Shown: positions 32,172 through 61,827 of the stretch, piece after piece
How positions within the stretch are numbered: position 1 is the first letter of the stretch
Layout: the number at the start of each line of letters is the position of its first letter
DNA from: Methylococcus mesophilus
GTDB lineage: Bacteria; Pseudomonadota; Gammaproteobacteria; Methylococcales; Methylococcaceae
Reading direction: 5' to 3'
Assembly: GCF_026247885.1 (NCBI RefSeq)
Contig: NZ_CP110921.1
Coordinates: forward strand, 2,041,001-2,105,000
DNA length: 64,000 nt
Position numbers and translations under genes: made by a program
The notes under the pieces: model-generated
Told to the model about the DNA's origin: nothing
Databases searched by the model: none
What the model saw: the letters and a program-made list of their open reading frames with translations, nothing else

Positions 32172-32357
32172 GACCGTAGGTTTTCGGGATACACGGACGT
32201 ATCCCGCCTTGAGATGCGGCCCGCCGCGTCCTCCAGACAGGCAGGAATAAGCCTGAACCCCACCACCCGGACCAACCGGCCCGATCCGGGCCATTCCCGG
32301 CCGCCTGCGCGCATCGAGCCCGCCGGACGGTCTGTCCGCTACCGACGGTACAACGCC

Positions 32358-36243: not shown

Positions 36244-36260
36244 GATTCCTGCCAGTGCTG

Positions 36261-39292: not shown

Positions 39293-39637
39293 GTATTTCC
39301 TGGACCTGATGACGAATCGGCTCCAATGCTTTACAAGTTCTGCGCCACCCATCCCCCAAGGCTCCCCGCGTCACCAGCGCTCGCCCGCGTACCGTCACCG
39401 ATCCGCCGAGCACCCCGGTCTTCGGGACGACGAGGACGAAAGCAAATCAGCGGCTTGCGTTCCCGCCAGCCGTCGCCCCACCCTGCCGCTTGGCCTGGGC
39501 AAAACGGCGGGCGACGGCTTGCCTCGCCGCGGGCCCCGCGAAAGTGCGTGAAATAACACACGACACTGAGCCATCTCACACACTCCGCTTTCGAAAAACA
39601 GCACACCCTGACCCTAAGGGCAGCGAAGCTGAATTCG
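39293..39637. other. Intergenic region upstream of the copper receptor
   Basis: 345 bases containing the presumed promoter for the receptor operon (- strand). The minus-strand segment 39333-39346 resembles a sigma-54 promoter (GTGGCG...TTGT) but lacks the near-invariant GC at -12, so I do not call it. No gene or repeat seen. Confidence 0.4.
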
Positions 39638-45021: not shown

Positions 45022-45076
45022 GGTTCCTCCGGTTCTTATTGTTGTCGCGCACCGCCGGGATGGCGGACGGTCCAAC
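44264..45076. repeat. 813-bp near-perfect duplicate block, copy 1
   Basis: Matches 48352-49164 at a constant offset of 4088 bases. It covers the first ~250 codons, the start codon, ribosome site and 55 bases of leader. Frames out of register also translate identically across both copies, so synonymous positions are conserved too. Identity stops abruptly at 45076 and inside the coding region near codon 253 (GNKGD versus GNKGE). Confidence 0.88.
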
Positions 45077-45086
45077 GCATCGAAGC

Positions 45087-45102
45087 GCAGCAATCATGCC
45101 AA
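45087..45102 (-). promoter_or_regulatory. Sigma-54-like promoter of nine-haem gene 2
   Basis: Minus strand TTGGCATGATTGCTGC: GG and GC separated by exactly 10 bases, 66 bases before the ATG at 45021. The first two GG-side bases and the final TGC match; the -12 element is CTGC rather than TTGC. The same element precedes the paralogue at 49175-49190, just outside the identical block. Confidence 0.6.
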
Positions 45103-48200: not shown

Positions 48201-49109
48201 GGTCAATTGCACCGGCAGGCGGTCCTTCCGATAGACCTGGGCGTTGATCGCATTGAACGGCCCCCAAGCCGATGCGACTTCCAGGTTGGGCGTGTACCTG
48301 GCATCGACGGCGGTCTGTAGGGTCCAGTCAGGAAACGGCAACACCACCACCTCGCCCTTGTTCCCCGCCAACTGGCTGCCGGGCCTGGGCGCGCTGTCCT
48401 GGGCCTGCTTCACCATCGCCGAGACGTCGGGCAGGTTGGTCGGCGGGTTGCCGACGTGCACCATCACGCTGTCTTCGCAGTAGCGGTTCTTTTTGTCCCA
48501 GGCGGTGAAGCGCACTTTGTAGCTGGCGTTGTCGCGCACGAACTGGACGGTCGTATTTTGGCCGTCGGGGCGCTTGTAGGCGGTGGGATGAGTGTTGGGC
48601 ATGGCTTCGCCCATGCTGCCGCCGGCGAAGTCCCATTCGAGCTTGAGGGGTTGGGCTTCGGGGTCGTTGAGGCTGGCGCTGCCGGCGAAGCTGACGTCGG
48701 TGTTGGCGCTGACGTGGATTTCCTGGGTCGGGGTGAGGATCTGGCAGGCCGGGGCTTTCTTGCAGTCGGCGGGGCTGCCTTTGACGGCCTTGACGGCTTC
48801 GCTGTCGCCGGCCTGGACCCGGATGCCGCAGGGCACGGCGGCGAGGCTGCCGCGATCGAGCTTCAGCACGAAGGCGGGACCTTGGCTCGAGCCCAGTAGG
48901 CGGCCTGAGAGGTCGTAGATTTCGATGGAACCGCTAGCGTTCTTGGCGCTGCCTTTCACTACCAGCATCCCGGTGGTCTCCGACCAGGTCGCCTTGGCGA
49001 TCTTGAGCTTGGCGGCGGCGAGGACCGTCGCGGGGGCGAGAGCCGCGACGAGTATGAACAGCAGACTGAGATGCAGACGACGCGCCGCTGCGGCACGGAT
49101 GGTGGCCAT
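45285..49109 (-). CDS. Nine-haem surface-type cytochrome c with Ig-like domains (paralogue 1)
   Basis: 1274 residues from ATG 49109. Layout as in paralogue 2: signal peptide, beta-rich N-terminal domain, nine CxxCH sites (CRECH, CTSCH, CLRCH, CYDCH, CGSCH, CGACH, CNVCH, CAACH, CDTCH) and two Ig-like C-terminal repeats. The N-terminus (about 1-252) is identical to paralogue 2. The middle (about 255-500) is strongly diverged, with an extra WWTGYSGPINPDNF-type insert. The C-terminal third is similar but clearly diverged. The pattern suggests the central part determines a different partner or substrate. Likely exported and surface-exposed. Confidence 0.88.
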   Translation of the reverse strand: MATIRAAAARRLHLSLLFILVAALAPATVLAAAKLKIAKATWSETTGMLVVKGSAKNASGSIEIYDLSGRLLGSSQGPAFVLKLDRGSLAAVPCGIRVQAGDSEAVKAVKGSPADCKKAPACQILTPTQEIHVSANTDVSFAGSASLNDPEAQPLKLEWDFAGGSMGEAMPNTHPTAYKRPDGQNTTVQFVRDNASYKVRFTAWDKKNRYCEDSVMVHVGNPPTNLPDVSAMVKQAQDSAPRPGSQLAGNKGEVVVLPFPDWTLQTAVDARYTPNLEVASAWGPFNAINAQVYRKDRLPVQLTGQDVQMKYSSASNPADPAGADSINTTSQNWPLNSDIRKAAPLEGASIQKTDVWDTLVRPASDPLVPDYGSNNWLAQVIWWTGYSGPINPDNFISPDEGFRIWTPPNPYWKLAGGDPPPGPYSDDHGRYMPGRDQPYAANSPQDFTTYFEEQRQHTARNVPVTDVDDSGRVNPFPLMRVQAVDKQSQQTLAKADAVVSAGKDFHCRECHAKGKIAANDQLDWSQYQQAFHSSSEYKACSWQNPCSDTFAPPAFFDAIDRNGQPSENPFDQEYAAVKNASALHDFYDNVGIIGSMGLGWKDDAGFHYDWPGTCTSCHQTMMQYEMGFNTNGSRGEKHGDDGYFPRYSLTMHRYHAQMQRDPNDPDKLLRGSDGRPQRWDPAQGANPNSLFPAVDSQGNSLPQEQSCLRCHAGHRDQLYRDRMYTAGVTCYDCHGDMFAVGQAYSKPRPGAEGFAARLEYYEEPDCGSCHTGNANEGTDGQNGFFRAGVMKRAFDSTDRSATSRTPKSQRFAVQPGKPAEIFYSKPVDENWSTRDSILAVTNPLYRWSRDTHGDVACGACHGGAHEVWPNRDPKANDNVTAMQLQGHTGTILECNVCHTADSFKLEADLDGGQYSGDAKPGILGGPHNTHPIDDPYWWKQADGDVANRDGSNYGGWHNNYAKKPGKEGEDQCAACHGNDHKGTRLSKTPVDRVFDFRGFDAKKLKKAGFKSKVVKVPAGTEIGCDTCHSIETSCIGSPAGSQCGVASGYVPVTVNHDPVITSTPGVTEAVMGEAYNYQVTATDPDGDSLTYSLGLKAGSMSISEQGLVTTTWLMETFSKYQSGPFTFPYTVTVKDGKGGYATQTINMTLRCPDGQAWVFDENAWSGSCVVQGVGITITSKPGIGGLNAGESYGYQVTATSDKGLPLSYALEGQPAGMSVDANGLITWQAAAEASGGVTFQVLVTDGQGGHASQSVTVNVCVAPQTWHSDHGMCM

Positions 49110-49164
49110 GGTTCCTCCGGTTCTTATTGTTGTCGCGCACCGCCGGGATGGCGGACGGTCCAAC
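48352..49164. repeat. 813-bp near-perfect duplicate block, copy 2
   Basis: Partner of 44264-45076. It extends from within the coding region of paralogue 1 to 55 bases upstream of its start codon. Flanks on both sides are clearly diverged, which marks the block as a recent copy between the two genes rather than simple duplication age. Confidence 0.88.
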
Positions 49165-49174
49165 ACACCGAAGG

Positions 49175-49190
49175 GCAGCAAACATGCCAA
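49175..49190 (-). promoter_or_regulatory. Sigma-54-like promoter of nine-haem gene 1
   Basis: Minus strand TTGGCATGTTTGCTGC, GG and GC exactly 10 bases apart, 66 bases before ATG 49109. Compared with the element at 45087-45102 only one position differs, although the surrounding leader sequence beyond the duplicate block is diverged, suggesting selection. Confidence 0.6.
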
Positions 49191-49480: not shown

Positions 49481-50020
49481 CTACTGGACCTCGTGCGGCG
49501 CCCCCGGACCGGCAAGAGCAGCACGCATCGCGGTCCAGACCTCCCAGGTCAGCGCGCCGACGTGGCGGTACCTGACGATGTTGTCGCCGTCCACCGCATA
49601 GGTCTCGGGCGCACCTATGACCCGGAATTCCGAACCGAGACTGCCGCGCTCGTCGAACAGAACCGCGGCATAGGGGTCGCCGAGACGATCCAACCAGCCC
49701 AGCGCCGTTTCCCGCTGGTCCAAATAGTCGACGCCGTAGATCGTGATGCCGGCATTGCGGGCGAGGTCCAGCAGCAGCGCATGTTCTTCGCGGCATGCGG
49801 CGCACCAGCTCGCCCAGAAGTTGACCAGCGCGGGCCCCTTGATGTCCTTGTCCCGGATCATCCCAAACGGTTCGCGCAGAGCAGGCAGTTCGAACGCCGG
49901 CAAAGGCTTGCCCAGCAGCGGCGAGGGGAGCGTATTGGGATCGAGCTTCATGCCCTGGAAAAACAGGAACCCCAGGATGGAAAAGATCAGCAGCGGAAGA
50001 AGGAGAAAGAGGCGGGGCAT
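49481..50020 (-). CDS. Membrane-anchored thioredoxin of the CcmG/DsbE type
   Basis: 179 residues. N-terminal anchor (about 3-22), then a thioredoxin fold with WCAAC (residues about 72-76), FELPALREPF and a cis-Pro loop in VIGAPETYAVD. CcmG/DsbE proteins reduce the CxxCH cysteines of apocytochromes in the periplasm so haem can be attached. Last gene of a cluster that encodes more than 50 haem sites, where such a helper is fitting. A second, housekeeping ccmG may exist elsewhere. Confidence 0.88.
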   Translation of the reverse strand: MPRLFLLLPLLIFSILGFLFFQGMKLDPNTLPSPLLGKPLPAFELPALREPFGMIRDKDIKGPALVNFWASWCAACREEHALLLDLARNAGITIYGVDYLDQRETALGWLDRLGDPYAAVLFDERGSLGSEFRVIGAPETYAVDGDNIVRYRHVGALTWEVWTAMRAALAGPGAPHEVQ

Positions 50021-50112: not shown

Positions 50113-52908
50113 TCATTCCAGGTAGTCAACTCCCCCGTTACGGGCCCGCTTGGCATCGTGGTAGTACTTGTACTTCACCAGGGTTCCGAGCCCGTGGCAG
50201 TCGACGCAGAACACCTTGTCGGCATCCTTCGCCCGGAGGAACGCGTCGCGGTTGCTGCCTTCCAGGTTTTCCCGGTTGGCGGACAGTGCGATCGTCCCGT
50301 CCTTGCCCGGCGGCGGGATCTTGTCGGCATCCCAGACGTGCGGTTCATGGCAGGTGATGCAGGCGATGCCGCCGAAGTCCTCCGGCTCTTCCTTGGCACC
50401 CAGCAGCGGCAGGATCTTCTGGTCGGAGCGCAGCACCAGATCCTTTTGCGGGTGGCTGAAATGGTGGACCACCTTCTTCTCGCCGATCCCGCCCTTCTGG
50501 TGGCAGTTCAGGCACAGTCCATCCCGCTTGAAAGGCGTCTCGTCCATCACCGGGCCGGGCTGCGGCTCCACCTTCCTCGCCGCGAACAGGAAGCGGCGGT
50601 CGCCCTTGCCGCGGTGCAGGGTATGGCAGCTTCCGCAGACGCCGGTTTCGGACGGCAGCTTGCCCAGGGCGTTCTTCTTGTCCTTGGCGGTGAGGCGCAG
50701 ATCGTGGTCGGTACCCACGACGGTCTGCTTCTGTTTGTGGCAATGACTGCACAGCTCGCCGTCGCGGTCCGTCTCCACCAGGGCGGCGGTATGGGGTTTT
50801 CCGCCGTGCACGGAGTGGCAGGTGAGGCAGCCCACCGTCTTGATTTCCCTGCCGCCGATCCGCACCGGCTCGTCCAACTCGGCGTTGACGGGATGCACGC
50901 CCTTCTTCCTGGCGTCCTTCTCGTCTTCGGCGTGCTGACGTTCGTGGCAGTTCTTGCACAAACTTTCCGCGTTCGCCACGCCTTCCGGCAGCAGCGAGGT
51001 CTCCGCGCTGCCGTCGTGGACGCGGTGGCAGGTCTGGCAGCCGACTTCGGTGATTTCCGGCTTGCCTTTCCACAACACGGGCCTCGCGCCGGACTCGTCC
51101 GGTTCGCGCTTGACGTTGACGGGGTGTACGCCCTTTTCGTGGGCTTCCTCCTTGCTCTTGGTGAACTGCCGCAGGTGGCAGGCGGCGCACAGTTCGCCCT
51201 CGGCGGTTTCCAGCACCGTGGTCTTGCCGTCGCCGTGGCCGCCGTGGACCTGATGGCAGGTCTGGCAGATCAGCTCCTTGTGATCACCGAACGCCGCGCC
51301 GCCGGCAGTCAGGCGCTCCGGCAGTCCTTTGCGCAATTCGTTCTCTGTGGGATAGCCCTTGGCCTCCGGATGCGGCGGCGGCATGAAGCGTATCCCTAAG
51401 GGATGGTTGACGCCCTTACGGCCCTTGGTCCCTTCGGCGGACCCGGTAGGCACTGGCGCGTCGAGGCGAGCGCCCTTGACCTTGGATTCGTGGCAACGCT
51501 CGCACAGGTCCCCGCCACGGTTCGGCACGCGCAGCCAGGCATTGCCGTGGGCGGGATACAGGGTCTGCGCCTTGTCCGCGTCGGTATGCGGGGTGTGACA
51601 GGAAGTGCAGAGCAGCTGTTTGTTCTTGGTGACCGGGAACTTGTCGGGCAGCTTGTCCTTGCGCGGCTTGAGCCCCGCATGGCGCTTCTTCTCCTTGGGG
51701 CTTTCGTAGACGGTGGGATGCTGTGCACCCCGGTGGATGGTCAGGCGCGAGTCCATGACCGCGCCATTGTGGCAGCTGTAGCACATGCGGTAGGAAGCTT
51801 CCGGCAATGCGCCCTCGGCGTCGGCGGCGCGGACCTCGGGCGGCGCATCGCCGGCCCAGGACAGATGGCAGAGCAGGCAATCCTTCTGCGACAGCTCGGT
51901 GCGCACGCCGCTTTCCTTGCCGGCGGCGGCGTGGTCAGGATAGCTCACCCGGTAGCGCCACACCCGGCTGGCGCCGGTTTCGGCGACGTAAAGCCGGCCG
52001 TCGCGGAAATGCAGACCGGTGGGCGAATCCAGCTTCACCGGCTGGCCGTCCGCCTGCCGCAGCAGCCCCAGGAATTCGCCCTTGCGGAACACCGAGATGG
52101 TGCCGAAATAGCTGTCGCTGACGAAAAACGCGTCCTGCTCCCGGTCGACGGCGAGGCCGTTGGGCCGGAACAACTCGCCCTCGTCGATGCCGAACCGGCC
52201 GATCTGGGAAAACGCGCGTCCGCTCTTGTCGAACACCTGAACGCGGGCGTTGACGATGTCCACGACGTTGAAATAACCGTCGCGGTCCTGCGCGATCTGA
52301 AACGGGTACTGGAACTGCCCCGCCTCCCCGCCGCGCCCGCCGAAGCAGCCGAGCCCCCGGCCGTCGGCCAGCCGGGTCCGGCACACGCGGTGGCTGCGCC
52401 GGTCGGCCCAGAAGGCGATGCCATCCTGCACGCTGACGGCCACCGGCTCCGGCGGCAGGCTCGGCGGGGGGCTGGCTGATGGTGATCCGTCCGGCTTCGG
52501 GGACGGCTCCGGCATGGGTTCGATGGGCAGGTCCAGCGCCTTCAGCAGCCCGCCGCCGGGACGCAGCAATACCAGCCGGTGATGGCCGGTGTCGGCGACC
52601 ACCAGCCCTTCCTCGGACAGGGCGAAGTCCATCGGCAGCTTCAGCAGGTCGGCGCCGCCCAGGATTCGAAGGATTTCACCGTCCGGCGACAGCGCCACGA
52701 TCCGGTGATGGGCGCCATCGAGCACGTAGACCCGGCCCGCGCCATCCGCGGCCACGGCCGAAGGCTGCTCGAAGCCGGCTTCGTACCTGACCGGATCGGA
52801 CGCCACCACCGCCTGGAGCGCGCCGGCCGCCACCGGCCACAGCCCGATCAGGCCGGCAGCGATCGCGGCAAAGCGCAGCACGAGTGCTCCCGCTGGACTC
52901 ATCGCCAT
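50113..52908 (-). CDS. NHL beta-propeller fused to a 14-haem cytochrome c
   Basis: 931 residues. A signal-like helix (about 8-30) precedes an NHL-type propeller (about 42-320; blades such as FEQPSAVAADGAGRVYVLDGA and LFRPNGLAVDREQDAFFVSD) broken by a Pro/Ser linker (PEPSPKPDGSPSASPPPSLP). From about 345 onward there are 14 CxxCH sites: CLLCH, CYSCH, CTSCH, CERCH, CQTCH, CAACH, CQTCH, CKNCH, CLTCH, CSHCH, CGSCH, CLNCH, CITCH, CVDCH, many followed by a VHGG or TPH-type distal His. NHL domains bind other proteins, so the propeller may dock the haem chain. It starts 7 bases after the three-haem gene. Confidence 0.9.
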   Translation of the reverse strand: MAMSPAGALVLRFAAIAAGLIGLWPVAAGALQAVVASDPVRYEAGFEQPSAVAADGAGRVYVLDGAHHRIVALSPDGEILRILGGADLLKLPMDFALSEEGLVVADTGHHRLVLLRPGGGLLKALDLPIEPMPEPSPKPDGSPSASPPPSLPPEPVAVSVQDGIAFWADRRSHRVCRTRLADGRGLGCFGGRGGEAGQFQYPFQIAQDRDGYFNVVDIVNARVQVFDKSGRAFSQIGRFGIDEGELFRPNGLAVDREQDAFFVSDSYFGTISVFRKGEFLGLLRQADGQPVKLDSPTGLHFRDGRLYVAETGASRVWRYRVSYPDHAAAGKESGVRTELSQKDCLLCHLSWAGDAPPEVRAADAEGALPEASYRMCYSCHNGAVMDSRLTIHRGAQHPTVYESPKEKKRHAGLKPRKDKLPDKFPVTKNKQLLCTSCHTPHTDADKAQTLYPAHGNAWLRVPNRGGDLCERCHESKVKGARLDAPVPTGSAEGTKGRKGVNHPLGIRFMPPPHPEAKGYPTENELRKGLPERLTAGGAAFGDHKELICQTCHQVHGGHGDGKTTVLETAEGELCAACHLRQFTKSKEEAHEKGVHPVNVKREPDESGARPVLWKGKPEITEVGCQTCHRVHDGSAETSLLPEGVANAESLCKNCHERQHAEDEKDARKKGVHPVNAELDEPVRIGGREIKTVGCLTCHSVHGGKPHTAALVETDRDGELCSHCHKQKQTVVGTDHDLRLTAKDKKNALGKLPSETGVCGSCHTLHRGKGDRRFLFAARKVEPQPGPVMDETPFKRDGLCLNCHQKGGIGEKKVVHHFSHPQKDLVLRSDQKILPLLGAKEEPEDFGGIACITCHEPHVWDADKIPPPGKDGTIALSANRENLEGSNRDAFLRAKDADKVFCVDCHGLGTLVKYKYYHDAKRARNGGVDYLE

Positions 52909-52915
52909 GATCGCT

Positions 52916-53722
52916 TCAGCGCAGGATGTCGATGATCTTCAGCCGTTCGTCATCGGACTTGTAACGGTCGAAGAACTGCGGGATGACGTGCTTGCGGACG
53001 GCCGCGGCCTGGCGGGAATCCGCGCCGAGGGCCGCGAGATCCAGCATGGGGGCATCTTCGGTATGGCACTTCGCACAGGCGGGCCCTTCCTTGCTCAACG
53101 GCGTGTGCAGACGGGCCTTGAGCTGCGCTCTGGCGGATAGATCACCCTCCTTCCACTCGCGGCCGACCCGTTCGGCGAACGCCGTTCCGGGCAAGGCGAA
53201 CGCCGGCTCGCCTTGGTAAAACGGCGCGATCTTGAATTTACCCTCGATCAGCACCGAATTGTCGAGGTTCCGTCCGGTCCGGAACCGGCTGCCATCGGGA
53301 GCGGCCGGCCGGCGGGCGGCATAGTCGAACCAGCGGTAATCCAGCCGCACGTCCTCGGGCCGGAAATGGCAGGTCTCGCAGGCTACGTAACGGCTGTGCA
53401 TGTTGAGGAAACTGCGGGTACGGAGTTTCTTGCTGTGCGGCTGGGGGCGGTGACAGCCCTGGCAGTAGGTTTCGCCTTCGTGCAGTGGCGGCTCGATCCG
53501 TTTGTGGAACGCCGGTACCGCCATCTTTTCCCGGAGCTTAACGTCCTTGTGCTCGCGCACCTGCTCCTCCGCCTTACCGATGGCTTCCTGCGTCGGCACG
53601 GCCGACTCGACCCGCTGGACGAACAGCGGCTCGCCGGCGAAGGACGAGCCGCCGTTCGCCCAGCACAAGAGGGACAGCACCAGACCCGCGGGTCCCAACT
53701 TCACCTTATCCTTCAACTTCAT
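52916..53722 (-). CDS. Three-haem periplasmic cytochrome c
   Basis: About 268 residues from ATG 53722 (TTG 53728 also possible). The signal peptide ends near SSFAGE (about 30). Haem sites are CQGCH (about 87-91), CETCH (about 115-119) and CAKCH (about 220-224); HSKK and HSRY histidines nearby could be distal ligands. It lies between the fused reductase (27 bases upstream) and the propeller cytochrome, the likely electron partners. No family name assigned. Confidence 0.82.
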   Translation of the reverse strand: MKLKDKVKLGPAGLVLSLLCWANGGSSFAGEPLFVQRVESAVPTQEAIGKAEEQVREHKDVKLREKMAVPAFHKRIEPPLHEGETYCQGCHRPQPHSKKLRTRSFLNMHSRYVACETCHFRPEDVRLDYRWFDYAARRPAAPDGSRFRTGRNLDNSVLIEGKFKIAPFYQGEPAFALPGTAFAERVGREWKEGDLSARAQLKARLHTPLSKEGPACAKCHTEDAPMLDLAALGADSRQAAAVRKHVIPQFFDRYKSDDERLKIIDILR

Positions 53723-53749
53723 CTCCAAGCACCGTTCAGCGAAGCCGGC

Positions 53750-56692
53750 TCAATACACGTCGCGCAGATAGCGCCGGGAGGCGGCCATGGCCTCGAGGTA
53801 TTCCTCGGCCTGCTCCTGCGTCCTTCCGCCCTCCTGCATCACGATCGTCAGCAGCGCCTGGTGGACGTCCTGGGCCATGCGCGAAGCGTCGCCGCAAACG
53901 TAGAAACAGGCGCCCTCCTCGAGCCAGGCGTACATCTCCCCGGCGCTTTCCAGCATCCGGGTCTGGACGTAAACCTTCCGCTCCTGGTCGCGCGAGAAAG
54001 CGAGGTCCAGCCGGGTCAGCACGCCGCGCGCAAGCTTATCCTCCCATTCCTCCCGGTAGAGGTAATCGGTGGCGCAGCGCTGGTCGCCGAAGTACAGCCA
54101 GTTCCGGCCGCCGGCGCCGGTGGCCTCGCGCTCTTCCACGAAACTACGGAACGGCGCGATGCCGGTACCTGGCCCGACCATGATGAGCGGCGTCGCGGGG
54201 TCTTCGGGCAAGCGGAAATGCTTGTTCGGCTGCACGAAGATGGAAAGCCGCTCGTCCGCGCCGACACGGCCGGCAAGGTAGGTGGAGCAGACCCCTTCCC
54301 GGTCCCGACCGTGGGCGTGGTAGCGCACCGCGCCGACGGTGAGATGCACCTGGCCGGGATGGGACTTCATGCTCGAGGCGATCGAATACAGCCGTGGCGG
54401 CATGCGCCGCAGGACGTTGACGAAAGCCTGGAGCGGAACGTCCTGGAGCGGGAAATCCTCGACCAGGTCGATGATCTGCCGGCCCCACATGTAACCATCG
54501 AGAGGTGCAGGGTCGGCATCCGCCAGCAGCCCGGCGAGAACCCGGCTGTCGCTCAGTTCAGCGTATTTCTCGACCAATACCCGGCTCAGGCCGGTGATGT
54601 CGAGATGCTTGTAGAACGCCTCCCGCAGCGTGAGGGTCTCCTTGCCCAGGGTGACTTCGGCGTAGCCGTCGGCCTGCAAGGCTACCAGCAGGGCTTCGAC
54701 GTAAACGGGGTTGTTCTTCGGATAGACTCCCAGGGCATCTCCCGGCTCGTAGCTCAGGCTGGAATCGCCGAGATCGATCTCGATATGGCGGGTTTCCTTG
54801 GCCGAGCCCTCCCCGTTGAGATTGACATTGCGCCGGACCTCCGCCGGATAGGGATTGGTCTTCCCATAGCCGGCCTTGGCCGCGGCCTGATCCGCCGGTT
54901 CGGCCTCAAGCGGCTGCTCGATGCCGGTATCGCCAATGATGGCGCGGCAGCAGCCGAGCACCGCCTCGATCCAGGCGGCCGCCGGTTCCTCGAAATCGGC
55001 ATCGGCATCGACGCGATCGAGCACCCGGTTCGCCCCCAGGCGCTGCAGGAAGGCGTCGAAGTCCTTGCCGGCCTTGCAGAAATGCTTGTAGCTGCTGTCG
55101 CCGAGGGCGAATACGGCGAACTTGAGATGCTCCAGCCTCGGGGCGGTTTCGGCATAGAGATAGCCGTGCAGCTTCTCCGCCGGGATCGGCGGCTGACCCT
55201 CGCCGTGGGTGCTGACGATGACGAACAGCAGCCTTTCGTTGACGATTTCGCGCGGATCGTAATCGGCCATGTCGGCCAGCTTGACGCTGTAGCCCCAGGC
55301 CCTTAGCCGGGCTTCGAGATCGGCGGCGACGCCCTCGCCGTTGCCGGTCTGTGAGCCGAACAGGATGGTCAGCGAAGTGATGGGTGCGTCGGGTTCGACC
55401 ACCGGGGCCGCGACGGCCGGAGCGGCGGCGGGCGCCCGTCCGGCCAGCCGCAGCAGGATGCGCTGCCACAGACCGGCCTTGGCGGAGGTGCTGCCGATCA
55501 TCACGCGCTGGAAGTGTTCGTACCCCACGATCTCGGTTATCGGCAATTTCCGGGAACGGGACAGCGGCGAGAGGAAACTGGATACCAGGAAGATCAGTCC
55601 CAGCGGCCCCAGCACCCAACCCGCCGCGTACCAGGCGGAATCCAGGCGGGAGAAATCCATGGCGAAAGATGAGCCTTCCATGCGCAGGAAGTCCAGGTCG
55701 TGCAGATCGGTGTTGAGGAATCCGAGATTGAGCGGGCTCTTCGCGTAGCCGTGGCATCCCGCCTGGGAACAGGTCTCGCCCAGCCGGTCCGGGTGGGTCG
55801 AAGCCGCCTTCGATTCGTCCCGCAGGACGCCGTGGCGGAAACCTTCGGGCGCATGGCAGTCGATGCAGCTCGCGCCGGATTCGTCGTTGACCGCGAGGAA
55901 TCTGCCATGCAGCGTCTTCGCGTAGCTGTCGGTCGCGTGGGCGAAGCGGAAACTGGCCTTTTTCCTTTCCTTGGTTTCCGGGTCCTGTATTTCCACTTTC
56001 GCCATGGCTTCATGATCGCCGTGGCAGTCCACGCACAGGGCGTTGGCTTCCATCTTGTTGTAGTTCCTGCCGACCAAGCGGCGCAGGATGTGGCCGCTGA
56101 ACTGGTTGCGCCAGGTTTCGCCCTGGTGGCAGGTGCCGCACTCGGTCTCGGTGTGGTGCAGTTCCTGCTTGAACCGCTCCAGATTGGCATCCTTGATGTA
56201 CGGGGTGTTGGAATGGCAGCGTCGGCAGGAGGGATTCTGCTGGCCGGTCTCCTCCTCGAGGCGGTTGCCGCCGTGGAAATCCTTGGTCGCTCCCGGCGCG
56301 TGGCCGGCGCCGTGGACCGATTTCTTGAACTCATCGACCACCGGCTTGTGCGTGAAGGCCTTGTCCTTGGACGGCTCCTTGAGGTGGCAGGATTCGGAGC
56401 AGTCCACATAGCCTTCCTCCGGCTTGTGCGGATAGCGCTCGATCTTGCGGTGGCAGTCCTTGCAGGGCACGCTGCCGTGCAGCGAGCCGTAATAATCGCT
56501 CTTGAGGACCGTGGCGACCCGCAGCACGCCGTGGTCGTCCAGGTATTCGAGCCCCGGCAGGCCATGGCAGGAAAAGCAGCCGTCGGGATCGCTGTGCCGC
56601 TCCGCGGCCAGGACGGAACCGCACGCTACCAGCATCAGCCACAGGGAAAAGGCGTACCGCATCATCGTCGAATTCAAAAATCGCTGCCGCAT
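53750..56692 (-). CDS. Multihaem cytochrome fused to CysJ-like diflavin reductase
   Basis: 980 residues. Signal peptide (about 11-30), then a multihaem domain (38-320): CFSCH, CKDCH, CRRCH, CGTCH, CVDCH and CIDCH plus two unusual sites, CSESCH (CX3CH, 98-103) and CSQAGCH (CX4CH, 308-314). One membrane helix (about 355-376) with Arg/Lys on its cytosolic side. Then a flavodoxin-like FMN domain (FGSQTGNGEG, 445-454), an FAD domain (RLYSIASS, 766-773; GVCSTYLAG, 799-807) and an NADP-binding lobe (GPGTGIAPFRSF, 839-850), ending in Tyr980 as in CysJ/P450 reductases. Predicted topology puts flavins in the cytosol and haems in the periplasm. It would draw electrons from NADPH. ATG 56665 is an alternative start. 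Confidence 0.9.
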   Translation of the reverse strand: MRQRFLNSTMMRYAFSLWLMLVACGSVLAAERHSDPDGCFSCHGLPGLEYLDDHGVLRVATVLKSDYYGSLHGSVPCKDCHRKIERYPHKPEEGYVDCSESCHLKEPSKDKAFTHKPVVDEFKKSVHGAGHAPGATKDFHGGNRLEEETGQQNPSCRRCHSNTPYIKDANLERFKQELHHTETECGTCHQGETWRNQFSGHILRRLVGRNYNKMEANALCVDCHGDHEAMAKVEIQDPETKERKKASFRFAHATDSYAKTLHGRFLAVNDESGASCIDCHAPEGFRHGVLRDESKAASTHPDRLGETCSQAGCHGYAKSPLNLGFLNTDLHDLDFLRMEGSSFAMDFSRLDSAWYAAGWVLGPLGLIFLVSSFLSPLSRSRKLPITEIVGYEHFQRVMIGSTSAKAGLWQRILLRLAGRAPAAAPAVAAPVVEPDAPITSLTILFGSQTGNGEGVAADLEARLRAWGYSVKLADMADYDPREIVNERLLFVIVSTHGEGQPPIPAEKLHGYLYAETAPRLEHLKFAVFALGDSSYKHFCKAGKDFDAFLQRLGANRVLDRVDADADFEEPAAAWIEAVLGCCRAIIGDTGIEQPLEAEPADQAAAKAGYGKTNPYPAEVRRNVNLNGEGSAKETRHIEIDLGDSSLSYEPGDALGVYPKNNPVYVEALLVALQADGYAEVTLGKETLTLREAFYKHLDITGLSRVLVEKYAELSDSRVLAGLLADADPAPLDGYMWGRQIIDLVEDFPLQDVPLQAFVNVLRRMPPRLYSIASSMKSHPGQVHLTVGAVRYHAHGRDREGVCSTYLAGRVGADERLSIFVQPNKHFRLPEDPATPLIMVGPGTGIAPFRSFVEEREATGAGGRNWLYFGDQRCATDYLYREEWEDKLARGVLTRLDLAFSRDQERKVYVQTRMLESAGEMYAWLEEGACFYVCGDASRMAQDVHQALLTIVMQEGGRTQEQAEEYLEAMAASRRYLRDVY

Positions 56693-56717: not shown

Positions 56718-57767
56718 TCAGTGCAGCCACACCGCGGTCGTGAACAGAAACACGGAAAAACCCGCGACGATCACGCCGTTGACCACCCGTCCCCAGTGGA
56801 TCTCGCGCGCAGTCGGCGCCGGTTTCGGCTGCATCCTCACCACCGCCTGCCATTGCGGCTCCGGATGGATCTGGATGCCGCGCTTGACCCGCTTGGGCGT
56901 CTTGTTCCTGGGCGCCGTGGTCCACTCGATGGCATTCCAGTCGCAGGCGTCGACGCAGTCGTGGCAGGACATGCAGGAGAACTGATCGACTACGGCAACC
57001 TTGTCCACCATCTTGATGGCGCCGCACATGCACTTCTTCGCACAATCGGTGCAGCCGGTGCAGCGCTGCTTGTCGACCCGGATGTGGTGGGTGAAACGGA
57101 ATTTCGCGCCCAGGCGGTTGACCAGTCCGTCGATGGCGCCGATCGGACAGAGGAACTGGCAGTAGGCCCGCCCCTTGCTGGCGAAGAAGCCGAGCAGGAA
57201 CAGGAGGGACAGGTTGACCAGGCCGACGGTGGAGAAGATGAAGGCCAGGCCGACGAAGCCCCCGCTGAGGGCCTCGACGAAGCGGGGCACGGTGATGAAG
57301 TTGCACAGGGTGCAGGCGCTGATGCCGAGCAGCGGAAGCAACCCCATGTAGACCGCGAGGTAACCGTAACGGATCTGGACCTGAGGCAGCCCGCGATACT
57401 CGATCTTCCAGCGGTCGTTCAGCATCCGGCTGACCAGCTCCGAGAACCCGCCGACCGGACAGATGAAGGAACACCAGATGCGCCCGAAAAAGAAGGTGAA
57501 GGTGATGATGACGAAGAAGGCCACCACGCCGATCAGCGCCACCGAGACGTGCATGAACAGGTCGTCCCAGTTCATGCCGGGAAAATACAAATAGAAGCGA
57601 CGCATGCACAGCTTTCCGCACAGATCGGTGTTGCCGGCCAAGCCCGGCAGCACCGCCAGCGGCCCCAGGAACATCGCGCAGGATACGGCGATCCAGAAAT
57701 AGCGGTAGCGCTGGATCTTCGGGACGGATCGGACTTTTTCGGCTAGTGTCGCGGTCAGGGCATTCAT
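56718..57767 (-). CDS. NosR/NapH-type membrane iron-sulphur protein
   Basis: 349 residues, ATG 57767 with GAGGAG upstream. Five membrane helices: about 22-42, 72-95, 133-152, 172-195 and 327-347. Two CX3CP motifs at the membrane surface (CSFICP, 99-104; CQFLCP, 203-208) and two cytosolic 4Fe-4S sets (C236/239/242/246 and C265/268/271/275) give the NosR/NapH/CcoG signature. CMSCH at 265-269 belongs to the ferredoxin motif and is not a haem site. Such proteins pass electrons between the cytosolic face and periplasmic partners. Its position directly before the fused reductase makes it the best candidate for the membrane-crossing step. Confidence 0.9.
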   Translation of the reverse strand: MNALTATLAEKVRSVPKIQRYRYFWIAVSCAMFLGPLAVLPGLAGNTDLCGKLCMRRFYLYFPGMNWDDLFMHVSVALIGVVAFFVIITFTFFFGRIWCSFICPVGGFSELVSRMLNDRWKIEYRGLPQVQIRYGYLAVYMGLLPLLGISACTLCNFITVPRFVEALSGGFVGLAFIFSTVGLVNLSLLFLLGFFASKGRAYCQFLCPIGAIDGLVNRLGAKFRFTHHIRVDKQRCTGCTDCAKKCMCGAIKMVDKVAVVDQFSCMSCHDCVDACDWNAIEWTTAPRNKTPKRVKRGIQIHPEPQWQAVVRMQPKPAPTAREIHWGRVVNGVIVAGFSVFLFTTAVWLH

Positions 57768-57795: not shown

Positions 57796-58728
57796 TCATT
57801 CGTCGAACTGATGGCAGGCCAAGCACAGCTCTCCATTCTTGGCCGGCAGCCTCAGCAATACTTCCTTGTCGATCCGCCGGTATCCCAGCTCGAATCGTTG
57901 TCCGTTTTGTTCGCTCAAGGTTTCCAGTCGCGCCTTCTTATCTTCCCGCACCACCGCATCCCAGGGGTGTTCGCGGTAGCTGACGCCGGTCTCCAGATCG
58001 GCGTTGTCCACCTGCCCGACGGCCGGGTTGAGCGCATCGATGACGCCTGGCTGATGCGGGGCGTGGCAGGTCGGGCACATGACCTTGCCCTCCCGGCTCA
58101 GGGGCAGGATGATCCCGTAGCGCTCCTTCGAGTCCTTCATGTGGAGCTTCATCTGGGCGTCGGGCTTCGAATCCTGGTGTTCCAGCGCATTGAAATGCGG
58201 CGTCTTCAAGTGGCAGCCGTAGCAAAGATTTTCCGGCGGCAGCCGCAGTTTGTAGTCCGGCGCGCGCAGTGGCCGGTCCCGCTCCCGGTGCACCTCCTCG
58301 TGGCAGTAGGTGCAGTGCTCCTCCTGGAGCTTGCCGTTCTTGTCCAGCAGGATGTGTATGTTTGGGCGCTTGAACTTGTCTTCCTCGTGGCATTCGTAAC
58401 AGAAGGTCTCCAACTCGTCGTAAGGCCCGCCCCGCAGGAAATCCGGTAGGCTGCGGTCGATCCGGCGGTACGGCACCTTGTCGATGTCCTCGATGCCATG
58501 ACAGGTCGGACAACGCAGCTCGCGGTCTTCGCGCAACGGCAGGCGTTTCGGCGTCTTCATCTCCTCGGGCAGCACGACGCCGATTACGTGGTGCAGGGGG
58601 GGCAGCTTCTTCGTCGTCGCATAGCTGTCCTCGGCACCCGCAGCCGCGATGCCGGTGCCGAGCAGCCACAGCAGCATTCCCGCCAACCACCTGCCCGGTC
58701 CCGGCCACGCGCTCCCCGCTCCCCTCAC
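57796..58728 (-). CDS. Six-haem periplasmic cytochrome c
   Basis: 310 residues. GTG start at 58728 overlaps the upstream stop (GTGA). The signal peptide ends near AAAGAE (about 32). Haem sites CPTCH, CYECH, CTYCH, CYGCH, CPTCH, CLACH. Conserved-looking repeats (LPLREDRELRCPTCHG and LPLSREGKVMCPTCHA) suggest an internal duplication. Likely periplasmic shuttle in the cluster. Confidence 0.87.
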   Translation of the reverse strand: MRGAGSAWPGPGRWLAGMLLWLLGTGIAAAGAEDSYATTKKLPPLHHVIGVVLPEEMKTPKRLPLREDRELRCPTCHGIEDIDKVPYRRIDRSLPDFLRGGPYDELETFCYECHEEDKFKRPNIHILLDKNGKLQEEHCTYCHEEVHRERDRPLRAPDYKLRLPPENLCYGCHLKTPHFNALEHQDSKPDAQMKLHMKDSKERYGIILPLSREGKVMCPTCHAPHQPGVIDALNPAVGQVDNADLETGVSYREHPWDAVVREDKKARLETLSEQNGQRFELGYRRIDKEVLLRLPAKNGELCLACHQFDE

Positions 58729-59723
58729 AATCCCCCCTTCACCGGCTCCCCATGGGTGTGGCACTCGGTACAATCGGAGGTCACGTCGTGCACGCCGGAC
58801 AGACCGTTGCCCGCGTCGTACGCGCCTTCCTCGACCGAAGGGTCCTCCATCCGGTGGCACAACACGCAGAATTCGGCGTAGTTGCCGTCGTGGACCCGGG
58901 CCTTGTAAGGCTTGGGCAGCGTCTTCAGCAGCCGGTTCGAGCCCTTGCGGGTGTCGTCCAGGATGAGCTTGGGGTTGCGGGTTCCATGCATGACGTGGCA
59001 GTCGGTGCAGGCGACCTCGTCCGCGTAGTGGAACTTCTTGCCGCGCAATCCGGGGTACGGCCCCGTACCGCCGTTGACCCAGCCGTGGCGGTCGATCTGG
59101 GTGTAGTCGTCCTCGATGGCCACCAGCGGATCGTTGAGCCCGTAGCTCGGCCTCGACTTGATGCGGACGCCGGCCGGCTGATGATCGCGGTTGTGACAGC
59201 GCAGGCAGAAGTCGGTATTGCTGGTATACGGCGCGAAGCTGCCGGCGGCGTCGCGGATCGCGGTCAGATCCACGTCGCGCTCGAACTGGCCGTCCATGTC
59301 CGGCTTGACGTGGCAGGTCAGACAGTCGCCGTCGCCGAGCGGCCGGTCTTTCTTGACCGAAAAATCGTGCTTGTGAGCGCCGCCTTGCCGGGGCGAGGTG
59401 GCCAGGTCGGTGGAGTTGTGGCAGATGATGCAGCGCCGTGGCGCGTTGGTCCCATTGGTGCCGTGGCAGCCGGTGCAGGTGGCCGTGCCTTTGTAGAGCA
59501 CCCAGTTGCGGATGTTGGGGGCCTTCTTGTGGATGTTCTGCAGAAAATGGCAGCTGACGCAGTTGGTCCGGCCCCAGGCGGTGCCGTCGCCGCCGTGTTT
59601 CGGCGTCAGCAGCAGGTTGCCGGTCGCCGTCGACACCGTGTAGGCGCCGGCCATCACGGAATAGAACACCGCAAATCCGACCATGCACAGCCATATCGCC
59701 AGACGCTTGGTGTTCGTTTTCAT
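58725..59723 (-). CDS. Eight-haem periplasmic cytochrome c
   Basis: 332 residues from ATG 59723, which overlaps the upstream stop as ATGA; a longer in-frame reading to 59906 lies inside the neighbour and is not used. A signal peptide or anchor (about 8-26) is followed by eight sites: CVSCH, CTGCH, CIICH, CLTCH, CLRCH, CTDCH, CVLCH, CTECH. His residues after many sites (HVMHGT, HTHGE) could be axial ligands. Overlaps on both ends show tight coupling in the operon. Confidence 0.88.
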   Translation of the reverse strand: MKTNTKRLAIWLCMVGFAVFYSVMAGAYTVSTATGNLLLTPKHGGDGTAWGRTNCVSCHFLQNIHKKAPNIRNWVLYKGTATCTGCHGTNGTNAPRRCIICHNSTDLATSPRQGGAHKHDFSVKKDRPLGDGDCLTCHVKPDMDGQFERDVDLTAIRDAAGSFAPYTSNTDFCLRCHNRDHQPAGVRIKSRPSYGLNDPLVAIEDDYTQIDRHGWVNGGTGPYPGLRGKKFHYADEVACTDCHVMHGTRNPKLILDDTRKGSNRLLKTLPKPYKARVHDGNYAEFCVLCHRMEDPSVEEGAYDAGNGLSGVHDVTSDCTECHTHGEPVKGGL

Positions 59724-60331
59724 TGGTATCGGGTCCTCGCGTGGCAGGTCTCGCAATAGACCTGGTTGTGGCAGCGTCCGCAGTCCAGCGTGTCGACCTT
59801 CACCGACAGGCCGTGCAGGGTACGGTAGCCCAGCGGGTGATAGCCGGTGCCCATGGTGTCCCTGCGGAAATGGCAGTTGGTGCAGAAAGCCAGATCGAGG
59901 TGGCATTCCTTGCAGGCGGCTTCGTCCCGGCGCGCGGCTTCGCCATGGTGGTCGATATAGCCGAAGCGATGGTCTTCCGGCCAGATCTTGGTCTTATCGT
60001 CATGGCACAGGTTGCAGCGCCAGGGGCCGCGCTGCTCGGTCACGTGGCAGTCGTGGCAGACCGCCTTGAGGGGCTCGTTGGAGATCGTGGTGAGCGGCTT
60101 GAGCTTGCTCTCGTCGGCCATCGCGTTGGGGGCGAAGGAATGGCACAGCATGCAGCTGTCGCCCTCCTCGTCCATCACCTCCATGTGGGCGTTGTGCGGA
60201 TAGCGGATGTCCGTGCGTTTCTCCCGCTTCTCCCACCATTTGGGGTCCTTGACCGCGTCGGGCAGATCGCCGGCACCGACGAGGGGGGCGAGGACCACGG
60301 CCCAGAGCAGAACCAGTATCAGCCGCGCCAT
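59720..60331 (-). CDS. Seven-haem periplasmic cytochrome c
   Basis: About 203 residues from ATG 60331 (the barrel gene stop overlaps it as TGATG; an in-frame GTG at 60334 is an alternative). Signal peptide about 1-20. Seven haem sites in under 160 residues: CMLCH, CHDCH, CNLCH, CKECH, CTNCH, CGRCH, CETCH. This density suggests a wire-like chain, comparable in size to small periplasmic cytochromes. Directly downstream of the outer-membrane barrel, it could sit inside or below it, as MtrA-type proteins do; this is inference. Confidence 0.85.
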   Translation of the reverse strand: MARLILVLLWAVVLAPLVGAGDLPDAVKDPKWWEKREKRTDIRYPHNAHMEVMDEEGDSCMLCHSFAPNAMADESKLKPLTTISNEPLKAVCHDCHVTEQRGPWRCNLCHDDKTKIWPEDHRFGYIDHHGEAARRDEAACKECHLDLAFCTNCHFRRDTMGTGYHPLGYRTLHGLSVKVDTLDCGRCHNQVYCETCHARTRYQ

Positions 60332-61827
60332 CACATCCCCTTCGGTTTGAAGTTGTCGAAGTAATAGATCACCTGGACCGCCCCCAGGTACTCGTCGAGG
60401 ATGCGGGTATACCAGACGTAGCTCCCTGCGACGTTGAGCACGAGATTGTTGCGCAGCATGTAGAAAGCCTCGATTTCCGCACCCACCGCCCGGTTGAACC
60501 CGTACAGGATCTTGTCCTCGAACCGCAGCGCGGTATTCACCCGCATCTGCAGCCGGGAATTCACGGTGTGCGTGCTGCTGAGGTAGAAACTGCTGGCAGT
60601 TTCGGGCCCCAGGGACATGTAGTCGAACTCGCCGATCAGACCGAAGTTGGGATTGAACACGTAGTTCGCCCCGAGCTCGCCGCCGTAGCCGTCGTAACCC
60701 TGGCGGCTCGAAGCGAGGCCGCCGACGTAGTAGTTGAAATCCTTCACCGGCTCGTGCTGGATGCGGGTCCGCGCCAGGGTCTGCTCGCCCAGCGCATAGG
60801 CGCTGTAGAACTTTTCCCGGAAGGTCAGGATGGGATCGCGCGGCTGGAAGTATTCGTAGGAACTGCGGACGCGCACGTCGTTGGTCAGGTCGAGCTGGCC
60901 GTTGAGGCGGATGTTCTCGAACGCCTCCCGGTCGGCCCGGTAGGTTCCCAGCACCCCCAGTTCATAGTCGCTGTTCCGCCAAAGCCCCAGCCTGCCCGCG
61001 CCGGTGGTGGCGAAATACAGCCGCTGCAAAGAGCTGCCCCAGGGCTTGGAACCGCCATAGGCCGAATAGCTGCCGGCGCCCGCCCCTAGCAGGCCGGTAT
61101 CGCCGATCAGCGCCCCGGAATTCACGTTGCCGCTGGCGTATCCCCCAGACCCTGTATATGGCGAATAGTCGAACGCGCTCTGGGACAAGTCGCGCCAGAA
61201 ATACTGGTAGCCGCCGCGCACGTCGATCCGGCTCAGGGAAGGCCCATCGCTCCCCCAGCCCCAGTCCGGCGTCCATTGCGCGCGCCCCTCCAGCCCGCCG
61301 ACGAACTTCCCTTCCACGCTGATCACGTGGTCGTATCGGCTGGGATGGCCGGCATAGGCGTCGAAGCCCCATCCGTTGTCGTCGGAGGCATAGGCGACGG
61401 CCCCGCCGTCGACCAGATACAGGCCCAGGTTGTCGGTGCGTTGGAAACGCCCCAGTTTGACGCGGGTGTTCAACGAATCGAAACCCTTTTCGACGAAAGC
61501 CTGGTACAACCCCGCCACGCCGCCTCCGTCGGGCTGATAACCGGTGCGCGTCACGAACTCCACGGCTCCGTGCAGATCCTCCTGGGTATTGTCATAAAAC
61601 CCCTGGCCCCACAGCTCGCCGAACACGTGCGCATTCTGCAGGGTATACCGGTTGTCGACCTGGACCTTGCTGCGCACCGAACCGTGCCAGTTGTCGCAGC
61701 GGCCGGGGGAGGAACCCAGCCCGCAAAACAGCAGGCAAACCATCGGCAGGACGGCGCTTCCCCGAGGCAAGGCCCAGGCGTACCGCAGGCGCACCTCGTT
61801 CCCAAAACAGCAACGCCTCCGGATCAT
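60331..61827 (-). CDS. Outer-membrane beta-barrel in the cytochrome cluster
   Basis: 498 residues, ATG 61827 overlapping the upstream stop (TGATG). The signal region ends near SSPGRC (about 43). The remainder is amphipathic strands with aromatic girdles (NRYTLQNAHVFGELWGQG, ARTRIQHEPVKDFNYYVGGL, RMQVN-type), typical of a porin or MtrB/PioB-like barrel. At 498 residues it is shorter than MtrB and nearer the size of Geobacter Ext-type barrels. The last strand region reads GAVQVIYYFDNFKPKGM. Cotranscribed with multihaem cytochromes, it is the likely outer-membrane sheath of the conduit. Confidence 0.82.
   Translation of the reverse strand: MIRRRCCFGNEVRLRYAWALPRGSAVLPMVCLLFCGLGSSPGRCDNWHGSVRSKVQVDNRYTLQNAHVFGELWGQGFYDNTQEDLHGAVEFVTRTGYQPDGGGVAGLYQAFVEKGFDSLNTRVKLGRFQRTDNLGLYLVDGGAVAYASDDNGWGFDAYAGHPSRYDHVISVEGKFVGGLEGRAQWTPDWGWGSDGPSLSRIDVRGGYQYFWRDLSQSAFDYSPYTGSGGYASGNVNSGALIGDTGLLGAGAGSYSAYGGSKPWGSSLQRLYFATTGAGRLGLWRNSDYELGVLGTYRADREAFENIRLNGQLDLTNDVRVRSSYEYFQPRDPILTFREKFYSAYALGEQTLARTRIQHEPVKDFNYYVGGLASSRQGYDGYGGELGANYVFNPNFGLIGEFDYMSLGPETASSFYLSSTHTVNSRLQMRVNTALRFEDKILYGFNRAVGAEIEAFYMLRNNLVLNVAGSYVWYTRILDEYLGAVQVIYYFDNFKPKGM

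Follow-up and report, generated by a model that had tools for sequence, protein, structure and literature searches.

A 64,000-nucleotide stretch of the Methylococcus mesophilus genome (contig NZ_CP110921.1, positions 2,041,001 to 2,105,000), hereafter the window, encodes a genuine fusion, on one polypeptide chain, of an octahaem domain, a membrane helix and a diflavin reductase. On the cytosolic side the fusion probably (at about 0.6) serves as the entry point to an inducible electron conduit across the envelope, in which electrons would run from NADPH through FAD and FMN to an adjacent NapH-like protein, on to the octahaem domain and out to the cell surface. The features of the locus are listed in Table 1.

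Table 1. Features of the fusion gene and its neighbours, in window coordinates.
Feature	Position	Strand	Basis
ExbB/TolQ-like protein	35587..36315	minus	profile search
TonB	36261..37004	minus	profile search
TonB-dependent receptor	37028..39352	minus	no curated cut-off reached; best scores from haem and copper receptor models
Second large multihaem cytochrome, paralogue of the 45285..49190 gene	41215..45093	minus	sequence comparison
Large multihaem cytochrome, Ig-like repeats, c553o-like (name by resemblance only)	45285..49190	minus	domains
DsbE/CcmG-type thioredoxin (c-type cytochrome maturation)	49481..50020	minus	NCBIfam TIGR00385, above cut-off
NHL-repeat protein, 14 haem-type motifs in homologues	50113..52908	minus	Pfam, locus comparison
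3-haem cytochrome (count from homologues), next cluster gene	52916..53728	minus	locus comparison
Octahaem-TM-diflavin fusion protein, 980 aa	53750..56692	minus	ORF, Pfam, genome comparison, hydropathy
NAD_binding_1 domain, aa 838-944	53861..54181	minus	Pfam; FSRDQxxKVYVQ motif
FAD_binding_1 domain, aa 611-805	54278..54862	minus	Pfam; RLYS and GVCS motifs
Flavodoxin_1 (FMN) domain, aa 443-574	54971..55366	minus	Pfam, motifs
Cytosolic juxtamembrane segment, about aa 386-400, alike in fused and unfused forms	55493..55537	minus	alignment
Membrane helix, about aa 353-375, only one in fusion	55568..55636	minus	hydropathy
Periplasmic octahaem domain, aa 31-345	55658..56602	minus	alignment, motif reading
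Signal-peptide-type N-terminus, aa 1-30	56603..56692	minus	hydropathy, sequence
NapH-like membrane Fe-S protein, five predicted TM helices, partner of fusion	56718..57767	minus	profiles, alignment, hydropathy
6-haem cytochrome (count from homologues; true start uncertain)	57796..58704	minus	locus comparison
8-haem cytochrome (count from homologues)	58725..59906	minus	Pfam, locus comparison
7-haem cytochrome (count from homologues)	59720..60334	minus	Pfam, locus comparison
Putative outer-membrane barrel, start uncertain	60331..61941	minus	gene order: counterpart of MCA0427
Outer-surface-type multihaem cytochrome, extends beyond window end	61827..64000	minus	Pfam, locus comparison

The fusion is read from an uninterrupted minus-strand ORF (56692-53750, 980 aa), and the plus strand of the same interval had three stops in the corresponding frame. 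The sequence-only reading had raised a frameshift or misread start joining two genes; this was ruled out by the intact ORF and by full-length and stop-free copies in four of the five other genomes of the genus (90-94% identity over residues 1-980). The fifth, which is 87% complete, gave no match to the fusion. Hydropathy revealed one hydrophobic segment of the signal type (residues 13-31) and agreed with the single membrane helix proposed earlier, which it put at residues 356-374. The haem domain, previously put at six to eight haems, contained eight haem-type motifs at residues 39, 77, 98, 156, 185, 220, 276 and 308, six being CXXCH, one CX3CH (98) and one CX4CH (308), the latter two of which would presumably also bind haem. 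Eight motifs were counted in 25 of 25 distinct complete octahaem rows, the window included; a further row, L081, ends at a contig end and was kept apart. Within the 10-row alignment, 18 histidines of the octahaem domain and residues G390 and F394 of the juxtamembrane segment were invariant. Pfam placed Cytochrome_C7 at residues 151-224, and the best PDB match of the octahaem profile was no better than E 0.23. The claim of a full FMN-FAD-NADP reductase with intact binding motifs was borne out by the Pfam domains and by FMN, FAD and NADPH motifs, conservative changes allowed, in all nine fused rows examined (from 12 fused genomes); the motif in the NAD_binding_1 domain is one that we take to be of the NADPH type.

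Besides the same-genus copies, the fusion was present in seven further genomes, and overall in 12 of the 48 octahaem-bearing genomes of the order (301 searched). The octahaem-plus-helix frame was too short to hold a diflavin in 34 of the 48, and none of the 14 loci read out of those 34 had a diflavin within the cluster. The diflavin is an optional add-on to the octahaem-plus-helix part, so the core of the system is the NapH-like protein with the octahaem domain rather than the fusion; since most relatives have the same cluster without a diflavin, the conduit there would draw on another electron source. An 8-kb insert in locus L095, inspected for an alternative electron donor, contained restriction-type genes. 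In the phylogenetic tree the fused diflavins formed one clade (99/97), sister to the Molydop_binding-diflavins (joint support 100/100) and apart from CysI-linked CysJ.

The NapH-like gene adjoined the octahaem gene on the same strand in all 26 loci read, those of 25 genomes besides the window, and a search with the NapH-like profile at E<=1e-22 recovered 6 of 229 genomes, every one with an octahaem protein. In four genomes the two proteins were encoded by one stop-free ORF. Long ORFs in other Gammaproteobacteria, suspected to represent a second reductase fusion, proved to be NapH-octahaem fusions. The neighbour looks like an obligate partner; constant adjacency, co-occurrence and natural fusions fit the earlier proposal that a membrane partner is needed, through which electrons would presumably pass. 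All 24 NapH-like proteins compared had the Fer4_5 membrane module and 16 invariant cysteines. Two CX3CP and two [4Fe-4S] motifs were present, as expected of NapH, and an extra CX3C + CX2C cysteine quartet, on the predicted periplasmic side, occurred in 24 of 24 NapH-like proteins versus 0 of 10 canonical NapH proteins. Both curated NapH models scored below cut-off (TIGR02163, 77.8 against 213.05 bits; NF007013, 69.6 against 234). Solved chains in the PDB matched only the ferredoxin part and the stretch directly before it (E<=0.01), and an AlphaFold2 model built from four sequences was uninformative (mean pLDDT 38) and was discarded. On the favoured reading the membrane cysteines would bind cofactors; NosR, however, is reported to hold at most 8 Fe, so the CX3CP motifs may be thiols instead of Fe-S centres (PMC5928378), and the new periplasmic quartet could alternatively form disulfides.

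The proposal that NADPH is oxidized in the cytosol while the haems lie in the periplasm was supported by established knowledge of haem attachment and NADPH use. In three complete NapH-octahaem fusions, moreover, 10-12 residues separate the end of the last NapH helix from the first haem motif, an arrangement that puts the ferredoxin domain on the cytosolic and the cysteine quartet on the periplasmic side. These lines of evidence argue for opposite sides better than the positive-inside flank originally invoked, which points that way weakly: with equal 15-residue flanks in 25 rows, K+R on the cytosolic side exceeded that on the other side in 13, matched it in 5 and fell below it in 7. A topology with both halves on the same side of the membrane is unlikely on the same three grounds of haem attachment, NADPH use and natural fusions.

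The fusion lies in a conserved multihaem-cytochrome cluster with a putative outer-membrane barrel. The barrel matched zero Pfam families, and its assignment comes from gene order and from MCA0427 of M. capsulatus Bath, termed a beta-barrel in print (PMC4831470). As in porin-cytochrome conduits, several multihaem cytochromes, the surface type among them, occur in one cluster, and the probable role of the gene set is electron transport to the cell surface. A sigma-54 promoter element was conserved, and in four of four same-genus loci with the element a Fur-like palindrome was found 185-264 nt upstream (2-4 mismatches against a Fur consensus, with a chance control for locus L121 alone). The Bath promoter is published with a putative FUR box, and its cluster is induced by copper starvation, MCA0431 by 4.3-fold (PMC4831470). 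That published box had no match in L121 at <=3 mismatches and no exact match in 127 loci; the palindrome found here differs from it. By gene order, MCA0431 would be the Bath counterpart of the fusion gene; its product reportedly escaped mass-spectrometric detection in the transcriptome study (PMC4831470). The promoter elements and the published induction fit an inducible electron-export system. With formate, Bath is reported to give anodic current and to reduce ferrihydrite, more strongly under copper starvation, the published outward transfer pertaining to whole cells and to a deletion of MCA0421, which lies outside the operon starting at MCA0424 and whose loss cut the current only partly (PMC6281684). 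The inner-membrane route behind the formate current is apparently unnamed in the literature.

In the proposed mechanism, electrons from NADPH would pass to FAD and on to FMN within the cytosolic diflavin domain. Held by the membrane helix and the conserved tail, the mobile FMN domain would deliver electrons one at a time to the NapH-like protein at its ferredoxin domain, and this protein would ferry them through the inner membrane via cysteine-ligated centres (two cytosolic [4Fe-4S], the CX3CP pair and the quartet predicted on the periplasmic side) and pass them to the octahaem domain of the fusion chain. From there the 3-, 6-, 7-, 8- and 14-haem proteins would lead to the barrel and surface cytochromes, where the electrons would reduce an acceptor outside the cell, Fe(III) being the likeliest. 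We infer the transmembrane path, the outward direction, the use of NADPH in vivo and the final acceptor, be it respiratory or part of Fe/Cu assimilation. CysI, to which CysJ passes its electrons, contains a [4Fe-4S] centre next to the sirohaem, so transfer from FMN to a NapH-type ferredoxin would not be foreign to a CysJ-type module; this qualifies the statement in the sequence-only reading that CysJ-like modules normally act on cytosolic haem proteins. At somewhat less than even odds, the system represents a quinone-independent NADPH:multihaem-cytochrome oxidoreductase, a new class of inner-membrane electron exit in which a NapH-derived protein with a periplasmic cysteine-ligated centre would complete an all-protein redox wire from the NADPH pool to the surface.

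Alternatively, the same outward path may serve assimilation, as an NADPH-driven surface Fe(III)/Cu(II) reductase feeding metal uptake on copper depletion, iron being needed for soluble methane monooxygenase and haems. This mechanism is compatible with the conduit favoured here, only the sink being different, and we consider it possible but doubtful. It would suit the palindrome upstream of the sigma-54 element, the putative FUR box of Bath, the TonB receptor, TonB and ExbB-like genes next on the same strand, NADPH rather than quinol as donor, and the reported absence of growth of Bath on Fe(III) (PMC6281684). Against this, no TonB genes were noticed within a few kb of the clusters in other genera, where ORF starts were read by eye, and at 58 haem motifs, the published figure for the Bath operon, a conduit would be expensive for assimilation.

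NapH-type proteins are commonly read as quinol dehydrogenases, and quinol might feed the octahaem domain as in Nap, leaving the diflavin as a second input or a quinone reducer. We regard this as unlikely: the family resemblance (TIGR02163) and the lack of diflavin in most clusters are in its favour, but the TIGR02163 score is far under the cut-off, and the periplasmic quartet, absent in canonical NapH, suits direct transmembrane transfer. An inward flow, with the conduit collecting outside electrons and the diflavin making NADPH, is highly improbable. Diflavin reductases are reversible in principle, and members of the sister clade adjoin what are presumably formyl-transfer (fhc-like) genes, where NADP+ reduction would be expected; yet Fe(II) to NADP+ is uphill at neutral pH with energy coupling not visible, and Bath shows the anodic current and ferrihydrite reduction described above. 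Lastly, the fusion is scarcely the cell's sulfite-reductase flavoprotein CysJ in membrane-tethered form, a reading largely rejected although the chain exceeds the NCBIfam TIGR01931 cysJ cut-off (685.8 against 668.15 bits) and is the sole match to this protein in genomes G000 and G002-G005: a sulfite reductase adjoining the fusion was not found among the matches listed, leaving it without CysI context, while such a match adjoined all but two of the canonical CysJ-type loci (16 of 18, the exceptions being G007 and G035); the N-terminal segment that serves CysJ oligomerisation was missing, as read by eye; and the fused diflavins form a separate clade. A 550-625-aa sulfite reductase, the type of G000 and G002-G005, also occurred in at least 16 of 20 diflavin-less genomes, so that enzyme dispenses with a diflavin elsewhere. 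A separate class of four diflavins was also observed without an adjoining sulfite-reductase match.

Known exits for extracellular electron transfer are mostly fed by the quinol pool. Working as proposed, the NADPH-fed conduit would link the NADPH pool to the outside with quinones bypassed, and an NADPH reductase of its own on the fusion would let the cell dump or use its anabolic NADPH pool at the surface. In methanotrophs this would offer a testable entry point for extracellular electron transfer, and a NapH-like relative that has the quartet and in some lineages shares a chain with its acceptor would be a clean system for the unsettled matter of transmembrane electron transfer in NapH and NosR.

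CysJ and cytochrome P450 reductase have FMN-FAD-NADPH modules and family motifs in common with the fusion, whose best PDB match was CysJ 6efv (over residues 440-980, E 3.9e-147); in contrast to CysJ, a membrane helix here ties the diflavin to an octahaem domain that is exported. NapH, NosR and PceC share the two CX3CP motifs with the NapH-like protein, and NapH and NosR also the two [4Fe-4S] motifs. Their common module is described with four helices (PMC5928378), whereas a fifth is predicted here, together with a constant octahaem partner, sometimes on the same chain, and the periplasmic quartet.

The Methylobacter EET cluster (PMC13322032), from the same methanotroph order, is alike in its barrel and multihaem conduit but has four genes and an inner-membrane monohaem protein with four helices; its main text contains no words beginning 'NapH', 'NADPH' or 'flavo'. 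As in MtrCAB, PCC3 and PCC4, surface multihaem cytochromes and more multihaem cytochromes lie in one cluster here, together with a putative barrel; the candidate for an MtrB/PioB-type barrel has no Pfam match, however, an NADPH reductase is fused on, and the inner-membrane part is NapH-like plus octahaem instead of CymA or the b-haem protein proposed for PCC3/4 (PMC5566968). MsrQ-like and PepSY-like proteins and NADPH oxidases similarly fuse a cytosolic NAD(P)H-binding domain to a membrane carrier through which electrons leave the cytosol, the MsrQ-like proteins with two haem sites inside the membrane and the PepSY-like ones described as poorly known (PMC8238504). In the system proposed here, a separate partner rich in cysteine would make the crossing and pass the electrons to a c-type octahaem domain that belongs to the diflavin's own chain.

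The reading frame combines a signal-type segment, eight haem-type motifs, a single membrane helix, a juxtamembrane stretch and a full diflavin reductase, in that order. Eighteen histidines were invariant in the octahaem part of a 10-row alignment, and Pfam found the diflavin part complete. CysJ was the best PDB match to residues 440-980. The protein would probably be named CysJ by automatic annotation, since its score exceeded the NCBIfam cysJ cut-off (TIGR01931).

Coordinates of features in the window and in loci fetched from other genomes (L handles)
Feature	Location	Strand	Remark
Octahaem-diflavin fusion	56692-53750	-	
Haem-type motifs of fusion	residues 39, 77, 98, 156, 185, 220, 276, 308		CX3CH at 98, CX4CH at 308
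Membrane helix of fusion	residues 356-374		single
Juxtamembrane stretch of fusion	residues ~386-400		conserved
NapH-like helices	residues 26-44, 76-94, 137-155, 174-192, 328-346		from hydropathy
NapH-octahaem ORFs	L078, L079, L080, L081		743, 735, 722 and at least 640 aa (L081 ends at contig edge)
Similar exported-looking proteins	30497-31237, 31302-32171	+	first without match in Pfam or NCBIfam
MauG/MbnH-like di-haem protein	32214-34433	+	follows the exported-looking pair
Tandem large multihaem cytochromes	41215-45093, 45285-49190	-	N-terminal parts read as near-identical
DsbE/CcmG-type gene	49481-50020		after the cluster
Restriction-type genes	L095:10211-18368		Eco57I methylase-like; PLD + SNF2 helicase; between octahaem and 3-haem genes
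Cytochrome c maturation genes	L016:13296-16000		Cytochrom_C_asm, CcmE, CcmF; few hundred bases beyond cluster
Molydop_binding-diflavins	L018:6153-8351, L019:5285-7474, L020:3416-5644, L021:5909-8095, L022:5594-7783		N-terminal domain FmdD-like

When the window proteins were searched against 26 loci (25 genomes, L012 and L023 being one record), a single common gene order emerged: surface cytochrome, barrel, 7-, 8- and 6-haem cytochromes, NapH-like protein, octahaem protein with or without diflavin, 3-haem cytochrome and 14-haem NHL protein. Gaps in this order fell mostly at the ends of contigs or of fetched stretches. The NapH-like gene immediately preceded the octahaem gene in all 26 loci. A diflavin match (E<=1e-8) occurred in seven loci from six genomes and was absent at that threshold from the other 19, which represent the five strong class genomes and 14 of the order's 34 unfused ones. 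The tandem cytochromes of the window suggest a recent duplication or gene conversion.

In four loci the NapH-like and octahaem proteins formed one stop-free ORF, the signal helix of the latter being replaced by the last NapH helix; the first haem motif lay 10-12 residues past that helix in the three complete cases. Haem attachment occurs in the periplasm, so the ferredoxin domain preceding the last helix would be cytosolic. Together with the hydropathy helices, this predicts that cysteines 50/54 and 152/155 are on the periplasmic side and 99/103 and 203/207 on the cytosolic side. Across 24 sequences of the NapH-like protein, none of its sixteen cysteines varied. Ten of the eleven matches above the NF007013 cut-off served as canonical NapH proteins: twelve cysteines were shared by all ten, the periplasmic four occurred in none, and these ten had no additional CX2C or CX3C motifs. 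The NapH-like profile matched 6 of 229 class genomes (E<=1e-22), each with an octahaem protein. As to what such cysteines bind, a study of NosR reports no more than eight Fe, and CX3CP motifs may be thiols (PMC5928378).

Some part of the fusion was matched in 41 of 61 genomes, its own included (E<=0.001), and the whole protein was present at 90-94% in four of the five other same-genus genomes. Named relatives came from M. capsulatus Texas, at 90%, and from two MAGs, one of Methylothermaceae (55%) and one of Methylococcaceae (63%, at a contig end). Of 301 genomes searched in the order, 48 matched an octahaem-helix profile (E<=1e-40). The diflavin was fused in 12 of these (G000, the window's own; G002-G005, same genus; G011, G013, G040, G046, G054, G063 and G069), as verified by full-length match or domain search, with G011 ending at a contig edge; in 34 the stop-to-stop frame spanned only 441-526 aa, which leaves no room for a diflavin, and two were fragments. 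At class level the profile matched 14 of 369 genomes (E<=1e-20): besides two of the same genus, five strongly (G503, G364, G436, G611 and G367) and seven as distant relatives matched in the haem part alone (best E 6.6e-50 to 5.3e-35). In these distant relatives (L059-L076) the membrane helix lay outside the match and some genomes had two or three; extra distant copies also occurred in two of the five strong genomes. In the phylum sample the own genome was the sole match (1 of 398, E<=1e-60).

The nine fused domains formed one clade (supports 99/97) in a 28-domain diflavin tree, which sampled 9 of the 12 fused genomes, every Molydop_binding type (five), 10 of the 18 CysJ-type loci considered canonical, and all four members of a further class. 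The sister of that clade comprised five ~730-aa proteins with a Molydop_binding domain ahead of the diflavin, Pfam-confirmed in three (pair 100/100). Ten CysJ with adjoining CysI (91/89) and four diflavins without CysI (100/100) were separate. The CysJ-type N-terminal segment, judged by eye, was missing in the fused form and kept in the other types. Four of the five Molydop_binding-diflavins have neighbours read by eye as fhc-like formyl-transfer genes; the diflavins are possibly NADP-linked formylmethanofuran dehydrogenases. In the octahaem tree, seven fused rows and the unfused L017 shared one clade (99/99), its internal order partly open; a single diflavin gain and perhaps one loss would thus suffice.

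No second match to the fusion protein was found in G000 and G002-G005, and in each of these genomes a separate sulfite reductase lay in a frame of 564-605 aa. Reductases of that type (550-625 aa) also occurred in 16 of 20 genomes without any fusion match, so sulfite assimilation need not be the role of the fusion. Among the sulfite-reductase matches listed, none was a CysI beside the fusion.

The sigma-54 element printed upstream of MCA0424 in M. capsulatus Bath had one exact copy in the window's genome (0.01 expected), upstream of the run's first cytochrome gene. Exact copies occurred in 4 of 127 loci, all same-genus; the G004 stretch (L124) stops short of the position. In those four loci a Fur-like palindrome lay 185-264 nt upstream of the element; it differed from a Fur consensus at 2-4 positions, with a chance control for L121 only. 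In the accessible text of Larsen and Karlsen, the Bath operon has eleven genes and 58 haem motifs and is copper-responsive, MCA0427 is a beta-barrel, and MCA0431 is listed at 4.3-fold and as undetected by mass spectrometry (PMC4831470). Gene order leads us to infer that the NapH-like gene corresponds to MCA0430 and the fusion to MCA0431. The accessible part of Tanaka et al. (2018) describes formate-driven current and Fe(III) reduction in Bath, and a lowered current upon MCA0421 deletion (PMC6281684).

In the proposed path, electrons would pass from NADPH through FAD to FMN in the diflavin part, then to the ferredoxin domain of the NapH-like protein, whose membrane centres would relay them to the octahaem domain, and would go on via other cytochromes to the cell surface. 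Redox potentials favour outward electron flow, and with the published anodic current the outward direction is favoured. Candidate sinks are respiratory, redox-balancing or assimilatory; metal assimilation stays well alive because of the Fur-like site and TonB neighbours.

In the open-access literature consulted, covered mostly as titles and abstract starts and with most subscription papers and all bioRxiv preprints outside it, no account was seen of the fusion, of any diflavin reductase linked to a multihaem cytochrome, or of the NapH-like cysteine quartet, a sentence in Ward et al. aside. The principle is already known from membrane electron carriers that bear a fused, cytosolic NAD(P)H-binding domain (PMC8238504), and porin-cytochrome conduits are known too.
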